A stretch of DNA of 64,000 nucleotides from Alicyclobacillus contaminans DSM 17975 (GTDB taxonomy: Bacteria; Bacillota; Bacilli; Alicyclobacillales; Alicyclobacillaceae). How positions within the stretch are numbered: the first letter of the stretch is position 1; each line of letters begins with the position of its first letter. Positions 55,653 to 60,627 of this stretch are shown here, piece by piece. The stretch is taken from positions 32,498 to 96,497 of the forward strand of contig NZ_AUCA01000007.1 of NCBI RefSeq assembly GCF_000429525.1, read 5' to 3'. The translations under genes and the position numbers were made by a program. The notes under the pieces are model-generated. The model did no database searches and was not told where the DNA came from. It saw only the letters and a program-made list of their open reading frames with translations.

Positions 55653-56627
55653 ATGAGTTTTCTCCATCGACTGAGCGCCTTTCGGGCCGAAGAGGAAGCA
55701 TTGCGTTGGGAAGGGACGTTTGCGGACTACCTGCAGATTGTGAGAGACAATCCTGCAGTGGCCAAGACCGCACACGCACGCATCTACGATATGATTGCCT
55801 CCGCCGGGATTGAAACGGACGAAGAAGGTCGCAGGCATTACAAGTTCTTCGAAAAAGAGATATTCGGATTGGACAGTGCGCTTGAACGGTTGGTGGAAGA
55901 ATATTTTCACGCGGCCGCACGGAGACTCGAAGTACGCAAGCGGATTCTCCTGCTGATGGGGCCGGTCAGCGGCGGCAAATCGACCATCGTGACCATGCTC
56001 AAGCAGGGGCTGGAGCGCTACAGCCGCACCCTGGAAGGCGCGTTGTACGCCATCAAGGGCTGCCCGATGCACGAGGAGCCGCTGCACCTGATTCCGCCCG
56101 AACTTCGATCCGAGTTTGAACAGGAGTACGGGGTGAAAATCGAAGGGAATCTGTGCCCCTCGTGCCGCCTGAAATTGGAGACGGACTACGGCGGACGCGT
56201 GGAAGATGTGCCGGTGGAACGGATTTTGCTATCCGAGGAAAAACGCGTGGGTATCGGCACGTTCAGTCCGTCGGATCCGAAGTCGCAGGACATTGCCGAT
56301 CTCACCGGAAGCATCGACTTCTCCACCATCACGGAGTACGGATCGGAATCCGATCCGCGCGCCTACCGGTTCGACGGCGAATTGAACAAGGCAAACCGCG
56401 GGTTGATGGAATTTCAGGAAATGCTCAAGTGCGACGAAAAATTCCTGTGGCACCTGCTCAGCCTGACGCAGGAAGGGAACTTCAAAGCAGGGCGGTTTGC
56501 TTTGATCTCCGCGGATGAATCGCCGGTGACACAGCACAGACCCATTCCGCACGCGAACGGCGGGTATGGTAAGATGAGGGCGTATCCCAAAGCGAGGTGG
56601 AGATCATGGACAAACACCGCGTCATGA
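55653..56627 (+). CDS. prkA: PrkA serine protein kinase, N-terminal part, interrupted
   Basis: Codons 1-289 encode a normal PrkA N-terminus: W-E-G-T-F-A-D-Y-L, AAA-type Walker A G-P-V-S-G-G-K-S-T (103-111), K-G-C-P-M-H-E-E-P-L-H, I-G-T-F-S-P-S-D-P-K-S-Q-D and F-A-L-I-S-A-D-E. PrkA is a sporulation protein made in the mother cell of B. subtilis. After codon GAA (56517-56519) homology ends, and 35 foreign codons lead to a stop at 56627. The rest of the gene starts at 59596. Joining both at the shared TGAA gives 632 codons, against 631 in B. subtilis. GGGGGA precedes the ATG. Confidence 0.95.
   Translation: MSFLHRLSAFRAEEEALRWEGTFADYLQIVRDNPAVAKTAHARIYDMIASAGIETDEEGRRHYKFFEKEIFGLDSALERLVEEYFHAAARRLEVRKRILLLMGPVSGGKSTIVTMLKQGLERYSRTLEGALYAIKGCPMHEEPLHLIPPELRSEFEQEYGVKIEGNLCPSCRLKLETDYGGRVEDVPVERILLSEEKRVGIGTFSPSDPKSQDIADLTGSIDFSTITEYGSESDPRAYRFDGELNKANRGLMEFQEMLKCDEKFLWHLLSLTQEGNFKAGRFALISADESPVTQHRPIPHANGGYGKMRAYPKARWRSWTNTAS
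56505..56535. other. Left attachment site (attL) in prkA
   Basis: The codons GCG GAT GAA (56511-56519) mark the left break. The stretch GCGG-A-TGAA is shared, with one mismatch, with GCGG-T-TGAA at the right break. On the element side, GTGACACAG (56526-56534) is nearly the inverse of CTCTGTCAC (59577-59585) inside the right end, as expected for a serine-recombinase site. Confidence 0.8.
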
Positions 56628-57565
56628 TTTTAGGCACCGGCCCAGCCGGCTTAACGGCGGCCATTTACGCAGCTCGTGCAAACCTGGCTCCGGTTGTGAT
56701 TGAGGGGAACGAACCGGGCGGCCAGTTGACATTGACCACTGAGGTCGAGAACTTCCCCGGCTTTCCGGACGGCATCATGGGTCCTGAACTGATGGACAAC
56801 ATGCGCAAGCAGGCCGAGAAATTCGGCGCCGTGTTCGTGCGTGGATTTGTCACAGCGGTGGACCTGACCAAGCGTCCATTCACGGTCACGGTGGATGACA
56901 AGCACCAGCACCAGGCCGACAGTTTAATCATTTCCACCGGTGCATCCGCAAAAATGCTTGGCATTCCAGGCGAATCGGAGATGGTTGGCCGCGGCGTGTC
57001 CACCTGCGCCACCTGTGACGGATTCTTCTTCCGGAACAAGAAGATCATTGTGGTGGGGGGCGGCGACTCGGCCATGGAGGAGGCGACCTTCCTGACCAAA
57101 TTCGCGTCGGAGGTCACGATTGTTCATCGCCGCAACGAACTCCGCGCATCCAAAGTGATGCAGGAGCGGGCGCGCAACAACCCGAAAATCAAGTGGGTAA
57201 TGAATGTGACGCCGGTGTCGGTCCAATCGGACGGCAACAAGGTGACGGGGCTTGAAGTGCGCGACAACGAAACCGGGCAAACGCGCGTCCTGGAAACGGA
57301 AGGTTTGTTTATCGCCATCGGCCATTCCCCGAACACCGGGTTCCTGAAGGGGCAGGTGGAACTGGATGAAGTGGGGTACATCAAGACCAACGGCGTCACC
57401 ACCGCCACCAGCGTGGAGGGCGTGTTCGCCTGCGGCGACGTGATGGATCCCCATTATCGCCAGGCCATCACGGCTGCGGGCAGCGGCTGCAAGGCGGCCC
57501 TGGATGTGGAACGGTATCTCGAGTCCTCCAGCACCCACGACTGGTCGGTCTCTGCAGCGCAGTGA
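56606..57565 (+). CDS. trxB: Thioredoxin reductase, located inside the prkA element
   Basis: A 319-residue NADPH-thioredoxin reductase. It has the FAD site I-L-G-T-G-P-A-G, the redox pair C-A-T-C (Cys134, Cys137), the NADPH site G-G-G-D-S-A-M and the late F-A-C-G-D-V. All catalytic residues are intact, so it is probably the working enzyme. ATG 56606 follows CGAGGTGG. Its reading frame begins inside the prkA chimeric tail. No trxB is present at 9368-9708, between the TPR gene and yvcI, where B. subtilis keeps it. The gene is essential in B. subtilis. Confidence 0.95.
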   Translation: MDKHRVMILGTGPAGLTAAIYAARANLAPVVIEGNEPGGQLTLTTEVENFPGFPDGIMGPELMDNMRKQAEKFGAVFVRGFVTAVDLTKRPFTVTVDDKHQHQADSLIISTGASAKMLGIPGESEMVGRGVSTCATCDGFFFRNKKIIVVGGGDSAMEEATFLTKFASEVTIVHRRNELRASKVMQERARNNPKIKWVMNVTPVSVQSDGNKVTGLEVRDNETGQTRVLETEGLFIAIGHSPNTGFLKGQVELDEVGYIKTNGVTTATSVEGVFACGDVMDPHYRQAITAAGSGCKAALDVERYLESSSTHDWSVSAAQ

Positions 57566-57638
57566 GTCTCATGCGGACCAGCGGTTGACCAAAGCGCTGC
57601 CGATGTGGGCATCCCGCGCCCCCATGGCTGGCGTTTTC

Positions 57639-57682
57639 GCCACCGAATCCACGACGACGTGTCGCAGATTCGGTGGCTTTTT
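57639..57682 (+). terminator. Terminator after trxB
   Basis: A perfect 11-bp stem (57639-57649 with 57667-57677) followed by TTTTTAC. It ends trxB before the convergent recombinase gene, so read-through into the rest of the element should be limited. Confidence 0.88.
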
Positions 57683-57712
57683 ACGCTTTCAGGGCCTCTG
57701 GCACCTTCGGTG

Positions 57713-59311: not shown

Positions 59312-59404
59312 CTCGGCCGCCGGCACAGCGCGAAACTTGACGGCGGCTGTCGGCATTCTCCGCAGCTCTTGCGGCATACGATGCACACAGGGAGGTGCCA
59401 GCCC

Positions 59405-59599
59405 GTGAACGGGGAGTCTGTCCTGTGTGACACCGTGCTGGGACGCGTCGTCCTCGAGGTGTCCGAATCACCGTCCGGATCGTCCTCGACCATGCCGTCC
59501 GTGCGCTACGAGACCATCGTCCGCGCGCTGCAGGCGTCGGAGGCGTCCGCAGCCAATCCGGCGGTTTTTCCATCATCTCTGTCACAGCGGTTGAAATGA
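59405..59599 (+). CDS. 64-codon frame spanning attR; candidate excision factor
   Basis: A 64-residue frame with a strong ribosome-binding site (GGGAGGTG, 8 bases before GTG 59405). It is divergent from the recombinase and ends exactly at the right break: its last codons TTG AAA TGA overlap the restart of prkA. The protein is acidic in the middle and Ser/Ala-rich, with V-L-G-R-V-V-L-E-V and Y-E-T-I-V-R-A-L-Q-A. I recognise no family. Size and place would suit a recombination directionality factor such as SprB (58 aa in SPbeta); excision would change its 3' end. Inference only. Confidence 0.45.
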   Translation: MNGESVLCDTVLGRVVLEVSESPSGSSSTMPSVRYETIVRALQASEASAANPAVFPSSLSQRLK

Positions 59600-59612
59600 T
59601 TGTGGCGCATAC
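59575..59612. other. Right attachment site (attR) in prkA
   Basis: GCGG-T-TGAA (59587-59595) precedes ATG ATT GTG, where PrkA homology resumes. On the element side CTCTGTCAC (59577-59585) mirrors the sequence inside attL. Crossing over in TGAA rather than GCGG is favoured because it keeps the conserved Asp codon from the left side. Confidence 0.8.
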
Positions 59613-60627
59613 CAATGAAGCCGAGTACCGGTCGTTCATCGCCAACAAGAAAAACGAAGCGCTGCAGTCGCGGATGATTGTCATGCCCGTGCCGTACAAT
59701 CTGCGGGTGGACGAGGAAATCAAGATTTACGAGAAGTTGATTCAGCAAAGTGACCTGCGCAATGTGCACATTGCGCCCCATGCGCTCAAGACGGCCGCCA
59801 TTTTCTCCATCCTCACGCGTTTGAAGGAACCGAAAAAGCAGGGCGTGGACCTGTTGAAAAAGCTCTACCTGTATAACGGTGACGCGGTGGAGGGACTGAA
59901 GGAAAGCGATCTGAAGGAACTGCGTCAGGAGTATCCGGACGAGGGGATGTCGGGGCTCGATCCACGTTACGTCATCAACCGCATCTCAACGGCGCTGATT
60001 CGCCGCGACACCACCTGCATCAACGCGTTGGATGTCCTGCGGGCGATGAAAGACGGGCTCGATCAGCACGCGGGGATCTCCCGCGAGGACAAGGAGCGCC
60101 TGCTGAACTTTGTCGGCGTCGCTCGGAAAGAGTACGACGAAATGGCGAAGACGGAAGTGCAAAAGGCGTTCGTGTACTCGTTTGAAGAATCCGCAAAAAC
60201 GCTGCTTGAGAACTACCTCGACAACGTCGAGGCGTACTGCAGCTGGCAGAAGCTGAAAGACCCGCTGACCGGCGAGGAGATTGATCCGGATGAAAAACTG
60301 ATGCGCTCCATCGAAGAGCAGATTGGCATTTCGGAGAACGCGAAGAAGACGTTCCGCGAGGAGATTTTGATTCGCATCTCCAGCTACGCGCGGCGCGGCA
60401 AACGATTCGACTACAACTCTCATGAACGTCTGCGCGAGGCGATTGAGAAGAAGCTGTTCGCCGACCTCAAGGATGTGGTCAAAATCACAACGTCCACCAA
60501 GACGCCGGATGCCACGCACTTGAAGAAGATCAACGAGGTGACCGCCCGGCTCATCGACGAACACGGTTACTGCCCGGTTTGCGCCAACGAACTGCTGCGC
60601 TACACGGGAAGCTTGTTGAATCGTTGA
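59596..60627 (+). CDS. prkA: PrkA, C-terminal part
   Basis: Codons 290-632 of the restored gene, starting M-I-V-A-H-T-N-E-A-E-Y and continuing with P-V-P-Y-N-L-R-V-D-E-E, K-V-Q-K-A-F-V-Y-S-F-E-E-S-A-K, L-M-R-S-I-E-E-Q-I-G-I and K-R-F-D-Y-N-S-H-E-R-L-R, ending G-S-L-L-N-R as in B. subtilis PrkA. It holds the kinase-like C-terminal domain. No ribosome-binding site precedes 59596, so this half is probably not made alone. There are no frameshifts or stops in either half, which argues against simple decay. yhbH follows after 38 bp. Confidence 0.94.
   Translation: MIVAHTNEAEYRSFIANKKNEALQSRMIVMPVPYNLRVDEEIKIYEKLIQQSDLRNVHIAPHALKTAAIFSILTRLKEPKKQGVDLLKKLYLYNGDAVEGLKESDLKELRQEYPDEGMSGLDPRYVINRISTALIRRDTTCINALDVLRAMKDGLDQHAGISREDKERLLNFVGVARKEYDEMAKTEVQKAFVYSFEESAKTLLENYLDNVEAYCSWQKLKDPLTGEEIDPDEKLMRSIEEQIGISENAKKTFREEILIRISSYARRGKRFDYNSHERLREAIEKKLFADLKDVVKITTSTKTPDATHLKKINEVTARLIDEHGYCPVCANELLRYTGSLLNR

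Follow-up and report, generated by a model that had tools for sequence, protein, structure and literature searches.

A compact recombinase element splits prkA of Alicyclobacillus contaminans at Glu289 and is predicted to be excised, most likely in the sporulating mother cell

Elements such as skin, SPbeta, vfbin, vrin, gin and yin interrupt sporulation genes, and the targets named in excerpts of the published accounts are sigK, spsM, spoVFB, spoVR, gerE and yabG (PMC4191935, PMC5595907, PMC6957869, PMC5025042, PMC10747680; these and the other papers on such elements and on prkA are cited from excerpts). In spsM of Bacillus subtilis, SprA rejoins the gene that is cut by SPbeta (PMC4191935). The elements vrin in spoVR and vfbin in spoVFB are ascribed to Abe et al. 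2013 (PMC4191935, PMC6957869), and A. acidoterrestris has a known prophage in sigK (PMC13141910). In this study, a window of 64,000 nucleotides from Alicyclobacillus contaminans DSM 17975 (contig NZ_AUCA01000007.1, positions 32,498 to 96,497; coordinates below count from its first base) was analyzed, in which the gene prkA is split by a short element encoding a large serine recombinase (LSR). In B. subtilis, a prkA deletion leads to sporulation defects and lower sigma-K expression (PMC4415436).

The element is a compact variant of the known kind, and prkA is a new target; neither prkA nor yhbH, the next gene, is among the published targets found. In the excerpts of the six papers on such elements (PMC4191935, PMC5595907, PMC6957869, PMC5025042, PMC10747680, PMC13141910) prkA is not named, and in the four of them searched for it, yhbH is not named either. 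The main text of an LSR survey does not name prkA (PMC10083194), and no title or abstract among the matches listed in literature searches dealt with an interrupted prkA or yhbH.

The closest likeness is to SPbeta (SprA/YokA, SprB/YotN), with which the locus shares the LSR family, a cut spore-formation gene, the in-frame join and, as in four sibling elements, an LSR at one end and a small open reading frame (ORF) at the other. However, SPbeta is a phage of 134 kb located in spsM, whereas the prkA element has 3.1 kb without phage structural genes, its excision is predicted, and the kinship of its small ORF to SprB is not established. Like skin in sigK (B. subtilis, C. difficile), it is an LSR element with a short core in a mother-cell gene, but skin is prophage-like, larger and has another target. 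The elements vrin and vfbin differ in their targets, spoVR and spoVFB instead of prkA and yhbH, yet spoVR is the third gene of the prkA operon and a spoVFB-like gene is also cut, in a vfbin-like way, in the genome of the window. The gin element in gerE of B. cereus likewise has no phage genes, but comprises 28.6 kb and three recombinases against one LSR and trxB here; yin in yabG of C. botulinum is also an LSR element in a sporulation gene, but is prophage-like and described from one strain. The fdxN element of heterocystous cyanobacteria is excised during development, as is proposed for the prkA element, and its recombinase XisF is among the nearest NCBIfam models to the LSR, far below the cut-off; bacteria and type of development are different.

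It is likely that prkA, which is split at Glu289 by this LSR element, is rejoined to a gene of 632 codons by recombination at a GA dinucleotide, most probably in the mother cell of the sporulating bacterium. The following features underlie this prediction:

55653-56519, plus strand: prkA 5′ half, codons 1-289, ending ...ISADE (Pfam AAA_PrkA 2-275/358; uninterrupted alleles)
56517-56518, plus strand: attL core dinucleotide GA, in the GAA of Glu289 (common to split alleles; centre of the attP inverted repeat)
56520-56545, plus strand: element arm of attL, right half of the predicted attP inverted repeat (attP reconstruction)
56606-57565, plus strand: trxB, thioredoxin reductase, cargo of the element (TIGR01292, 406 bits, cut-off 343)
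57713-59251, minus strand: LSR of 512 amino acids (Pfam domains Resolvase and Recombinase; YokA matches)
59283-59290, minus strand: CATATACA, predicted sigma-E/sigma-K-like -10 box upstream of the LSR start
59405-59599, plus strand: small ORF of 64 codons whose end spans attR, a candidate recombination directionality factor in a position like that of SprB in SPbeta
59568-59592, plus strand: element arm of attR, left half of the predicted attP inverted repeat (attP reconstruction)
59593-59594, plus strand: attR core dinucleotide GA (allele comparison; attP reconstruction)
59593-60627, plus strand: prkA 3′ half, codon 289 (GAA) to stop, resuming MIVAHT (Pfam AAA_PrkA 276-356, followed by the PrkA C-terminal domain)

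From the G of the left GAA (56517) to the G of the right GAA (59593) the element has a length of 3,076 bp. The left half of prkA stops with GCG GAT GAA at 56519, and the right half picks up with GTT GAA ATG at 59590-59598. Both parts are open and in frame, and the AAA_PrkA domain is broken between profile position 275 of the left half and 276 of the right half. The 5′ reading frame continues past the cut into the element, to 56627. The original prediction, which had been made from the letters of the window, gave the same coordinates, reading frames and length as well as the match GCGG-N-TGAA at both breaks, and its restored gene of 632 codons was reproduced when the joined length was recomputed. 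The 3.1-kb element consists of trxB, the LSR and small ORFs; no phage structural genes were found in it, the small ORFs not having been compared with phage libraries.

When the predicted joint was compared with uninterrupted prkA alleles of relatives, a check that the original prediction had proposed, all 27 alleles (two paralogues included) agreed with it, reading S-A-D-E and then M or L at the join. The left parts of split alleles end in GCN GAY GAR in 7 of 7 cases in a first comparison and in 10 of 12 rows in a second, where one locus reads Y-A-D-E (L075) and one piece of another (L080) stops at a different site. Where the boundary is visible, the right parts start with GAR and a Met or Leu codon (9/9 and 2/2). 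PrkA was present in 38 of 41 genomes in a first search, and many 3′ halves stand alone. By a hand tally over 59 genomes of the order, prkA is cut near residue 289 in ten genomes (G000, G001, G009, G016, G023, G025, G036, G037, G038 and G044; parts on different contigs in G025 and G036) and 38 have a whole orthologue. In the rest, two are cut near residue 508, four show no match, and five are partial or at a contig edge and stand outside the prkA counts (G007, G014, G033, G040, G058); in G033, two contigs that overlap over 689 bases with 97.7% identity indicate a mixture of two variants. The carriers presumably include A. pomorum DSM 14955 (G001), A. tolerans BL-1 (G009), Alicyclobacillus sp. 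SO9 (G016), Alicyclobacillus sp. SP_1 (G023), Ferroacidibacillus organovorans (G025) and A. acidoterrestris (G044). A whole paralogue besides the cut prkA is found in three of the ten (G001, G009, G016), and six have no other whole or joined PrkA; in the genome of the window, a genome search found no second whole prkA. An assembly artefact was ruled out: prkA of A. pomorum is interrupted at the same place by an element with the same cargo, and in G016 and G044 the cut is internal to megabase contigs.

A scan of named genomes with the LSR alignment gave 28 loci, and prkA was found broken near residue 289 also in Moorella, Paenibacillus, Terribacillus, Salirhabdus, Desulfocucumis and two Bacillota bins. 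In IMG/VR, 7 of 25 LSR contigs carry a prkA 5′ part, with six alignments ending at 289-293 and one reaching 320. The recurrence of the same-codon cut in 10 of 59 genomes shows that the interruption of prkA is not due to chance, and a single integrase clade targets this codon across several Bacillota families. An alternative reading of the same data is a mobile element of the ordinary kind, integrated in prkA as its attachment site and able to excise on moving, without developmental timing, prkA being off in the carriers. This would fit the same-clade LSRs in prkA of Moorella, Paenibacillus and others, the prkA parts on viral contigs, and the patchy distribution (10 cut and 38 whole of 59), which shows gain and loss; the evidence that bears against it is given below. 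At about residue 508 instead of 289, prkA is cut in G031 and G035 (L051/L110, L052/L053).

The original prediction had placed the crossover in TGAA. The precise join does lie within these four bases, but the core shared by attL and attR across the compared elements is limited to GA, with which the Glu codon begins. The attP site was rebuilt from the element-side arms of eight elements, with 22 or 23 pairs per element and the core pair not counted. It forms inverted repeats with the axis between G and A, in which 95 of 176 arm pairs match, compared to 35-56 matching pairs for twelve other axes, a mean of 45 (maximum 69 of 5000) for shuffled arms and a mean of 72 (maximum 92 of 5000) for arms mispaired between elements. 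On the attB side, 7-9 of 22 pairs are symmetric. An attP that is symmetric about the central dinucleotide is used by phage serine recombinases (PMC5595907). At the right end of L050, the GA core of attR is part of the LSR stop codon (TGA), and the reading frame of the enzyme ends at the crossover site.

In a profile search against the PDB, the LSR matched the SPbeta integrase YokA, which we take to be SprA, with 3.1e-147 (profile 4-517 against YokA 8-518), and the YokA structure was also matched in a single-sequence search (2.2e-72). Ser18 in the N-terminal resolvase domain is invariant across 7 aligned LSR rows. For the LSR tree, 51 rows were listed, two were dropped as the motif was not at the given place, and 49 were used. 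All 20 prkA rows fall into one clade together with seven others (100/99). The LSRs of elements in yhbH form the clade yhbH-220 (6 rows, 95/90) and a clade of the eight yhbH-344 rows and one further row (100/100), and spoVR-291 is a clade as well (3 rows, 100/100), whereas the two spoVR-60 rows do not form one; the LSR in the spoVFB-like gene of the window's genome groups with them. The enzymes are thus grouped largely by target and not by host genome. Seven LSRs of the prkA clade adjoin no recognised prkA part. At one of these loci (L069) the contig ends at GCCGACGAG, and two, from Siminovitchia, cut a spoVFB-like gene, which points to a target switch to another sporulation gene. In these two loci (L076, L081) the spoVFB-like gene next to the LSR breaks off at about residue 110; the Flavoprotein domain covers 1-86/162 in L076.

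The ratio of nonsynonymous to synonymous substitutions (dN/dS) was determined according to Nei-Gojobori between the window's genome and A. pomorum, which both have a split prkA and trxB in the element (synonymous divergence, dS, 1.3-2.2). It amounts to 0.034 for the 5′ half and 0.044 for the 3′ half of prkA (dS ~1.3), 0.033 for trxB and 0.147 for the LSR, and neither prkA half shows a stop or frameshift. By these ratios both halves are under strong purifying selection, and their low values make prkA unlike a dead gene. Decay of prkA to a pseudogene, with the element as a dead leftover, is therefore scarcely credible at 0.03-0.04 for the halves and 0.15 for the LSR; the whole second PrkA of three of the ten carriers would speak for it, but the window's genome has none. 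Also very improbable is a split protein, whose halves would be made separately and then assemble, so that the gene works unjoined. Both halves are conserved and an in-frame ATG opens the 3′ half right after the cut, but this ATG is explained by the Met that most uninterrupted alleles have in this position. In addition, the AAA domain itself is cut (profile 275/276 of 358), and the 5′ frame enters element sequence that differs between genomes.

Joined alleles were found in relatives. The predicted join of the 6.2-kb prkA element of A. acidoterrestris is identical to the whole PrkA P0035 at 632 of 632 residues and to 99.4% to the whole PrkA of A. suci. In G036, the join is continuous on contig C83, which extends 70 bases past the Glu codon, and contig C42 carries attR and 150 bases of the element. 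Their ends overlap by exactly 77 identical bases from CGATGAA, and the preceding base differs. De Bruijn assemblers end contigs with a fixed overlap where two paths meet, and the exact 77-base overlap indicates that joined and cut prkA were both in the reads of G036, which makes the question of excision testable on existing reads. The joined sibling alleles show only that the joined gene exists, and they fit an ordinary mobile element equally well. The structure put forward in the original prediction, an LSR element of the skin and SPbeta type with a precise join within TGAA, was borne out by the same cut codon in many genera, the GA-centred attP, the enzyme of the SPbeta integrase family and these joined alleles, one of which equals the predicted join of a sibling element and one of which stands beside a cut copy in the same assembly. 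The element is very likely excisable and most likely a sporulation gene-intervening element.

Four TrxB homologues of the window's genome were scored with TIGR01292, a fifth, weak match being left out. The one inside the element exceeds the cut-off, and the three others score 165, 116 and 146, all below. By this measure, the element carries the only clear thioredoxin reductase of the genome. TrxB is essential in B. subtilis. In A. pomorum, the sole TrxB match at E < 1e-40 also lies inside the prkA element, and the matches of the 23 other genomes with one are located outside prkA by coordinates. How a former prophage could turn into a fixed insert that is hard to lose is suggested by the element's small size and its captive trxB. 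According to Pfam, the cargo of other elements comprises an M29 peptidase, a TauE/SafE transporter, a penicillin-binding protein and NlpC/P60, and that of the A. acidoterrestris prkA element an operon for GerA, a GerAC-like protein and a spore permease (L114:4835-8809). Spore germination receptor genes are also the cargo of the yhbH element of G008 (L108:2732-9458, Pfam).

Upstream of the LSR, a CATA[CT][AG] box is present in all eight elements of the order that are covered end to end (2.9-11.3 kb), compared to about 0.5 expected, as estimated from random windows of these loci. The -10 box recognised by sigma-E and sigma-K has a similar shape. Among LSR upstream regions of all kinds, the box occurs in 22 of 69 (6.4 expected), which shows that it is not general.

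In SPbeta, the SprB gene is the last one before the attachment site, at the end opposite yokA. A small ORF with the motif T..G.[VI].[VIL] is found at 7 of 10 right ends, namely in the window and four siblings, from which the motif was defined, and in G036 and L064 (Ser for Thr), which show a similar small ORF although not used for the definition. The motif occurs in 22 of 2258 stop-to-stop ORFs of 40-120 amino acids in the ten loci, defining ORFs included. A hidden Markov model of five small ORFs, searched in the ORFs of the loci, retrieved its own members only, and the PDB gave no SprB match. SprB itself scores above 1978 of 2000 self-shuffles with the seven-row small-ORF profile. The kinship of the small ORF to SprB is suggestive at best.

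Based on the role of prkA, the analogy to known systems, the purifying selection on both halves and the CATA box, excision would take place in the mother cell during sporulation. The element's own LSR would recombine attL with attR at the GA dinucleotide, so that the element is released and prkA becomes whole. A directionality factor, for which the small ORF is a candidate, would drive this reaction, and transcription by sigma-E or sigma-K would trigger it. The forespore would retain the element with trxB and hand both on, and the lone trxB may help to prevent loss of the element from the germ line.

Several observations weigh against this reading. The dS values are near saturation, and the attP symmetry is absent in L049 (5/22 pairs). 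The CATA-box pattern was chosen after seven of the regions had been seen; only 3 of 12 other prkA LSRs have it, and the 4.3-kb element L064 is without it. The small ORF is missing from three of ten right ends (L043, L049, L050), shares only 27% identity between the window's genome and A. pomorum, and its profile comparison with SprB, at a probability of 1.35%, is not significant. P0035 may represent a strain in which the element was never present. The G036 bin may combine several strains; it yielded neither an attL contig nor an LSR of the prkA type, its two LSRs being one of the yhbH type and one unlike the prkA clade. A joined allele of the window's own species was not found, the nearest whole PrkA having 89%. 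Nevertheless, the ordinary mobile element is considered unlikely, as the halves are under purifying selection relative to A. pomorum at dS ~1.3 without stop or frameshift, the CATA box is common to eight elements of the order, and all four LSRs of the genome are associated with cut sporulation-type genes, as described in the following.

A second LSR element, which the original prediction had overlooked, cuts yhbH:

60684-61712, plus strand: yhbH 5′ part, cut after ...AEVNQYN (DUF444 to 376/418)
61693-61699, plus strand: ATCAGTA, common to both ends of the yhbH element
61731-63260, minus strand: second LSR, part of the yhbH element, which runs past the contig end

The 3′ part of yhbH (QYNRSST...) is located on contig C72 of the same genome, directly before an intact spoVR. 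The genome contains four PF07508 recombinases, each associated with a cut gene of the sporulation type: two lie within prkA and yhbH, one within a spoVFB-like gene (contig C71) and one next to a YheC/D-like gene (contig C3). On C3 (L007:287-2842), an LSR similar to that of the yhbH element converges on the YheC/D-like gene, the domain of which is truncated at profile position 227/255; this is probably another intervening element. On C71 (L008:430-2845), the spoVFB-like gene, right after spoVFA, is cut after ~26 codons by the fourth LSR, as judged by eye.

In the comparison with relatives, yhbH could be followed in 41 of 59 genomes; by a hand tally of these, which are not a random sample, the gene is cut in 24, mostly near residues 220 and 344. 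The spoVR gene breaks off in at least nine loci of relatives, and both pieces were seen in one of them (L106). In G037 (L049, L103), prkA-yhbH-spoVR contains four cuts with an LSR for each, over some 26 kb. The operon may be cut four times in G009 and G031 too, with an LSR in view for only some of the cuts.

With prkA and yhbH, two more genes join the few for which reconstruction by excision in sporulating cells is known or predicted. The operon looks like a hot spot from which several independent elements would need to be removed before the three proteins are made. This offers a sharp test of why mother-cell genes attract integrases. A tentative extension, possible though short of probable, is that the whole operon is spliced at the DNA level, with all elements leaving in the mother cell, integrases of different LSR lineages each matched to their own site in the three genes, and the compact elements kept through captive genes such as an only trxB or germination receptor operons. 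At the far end of the yhbH element on C72 (L113), Pfam matches indicate a PemK/MazF-like toxin, SRAP and an FtsK/SpoIIIE-like gene.

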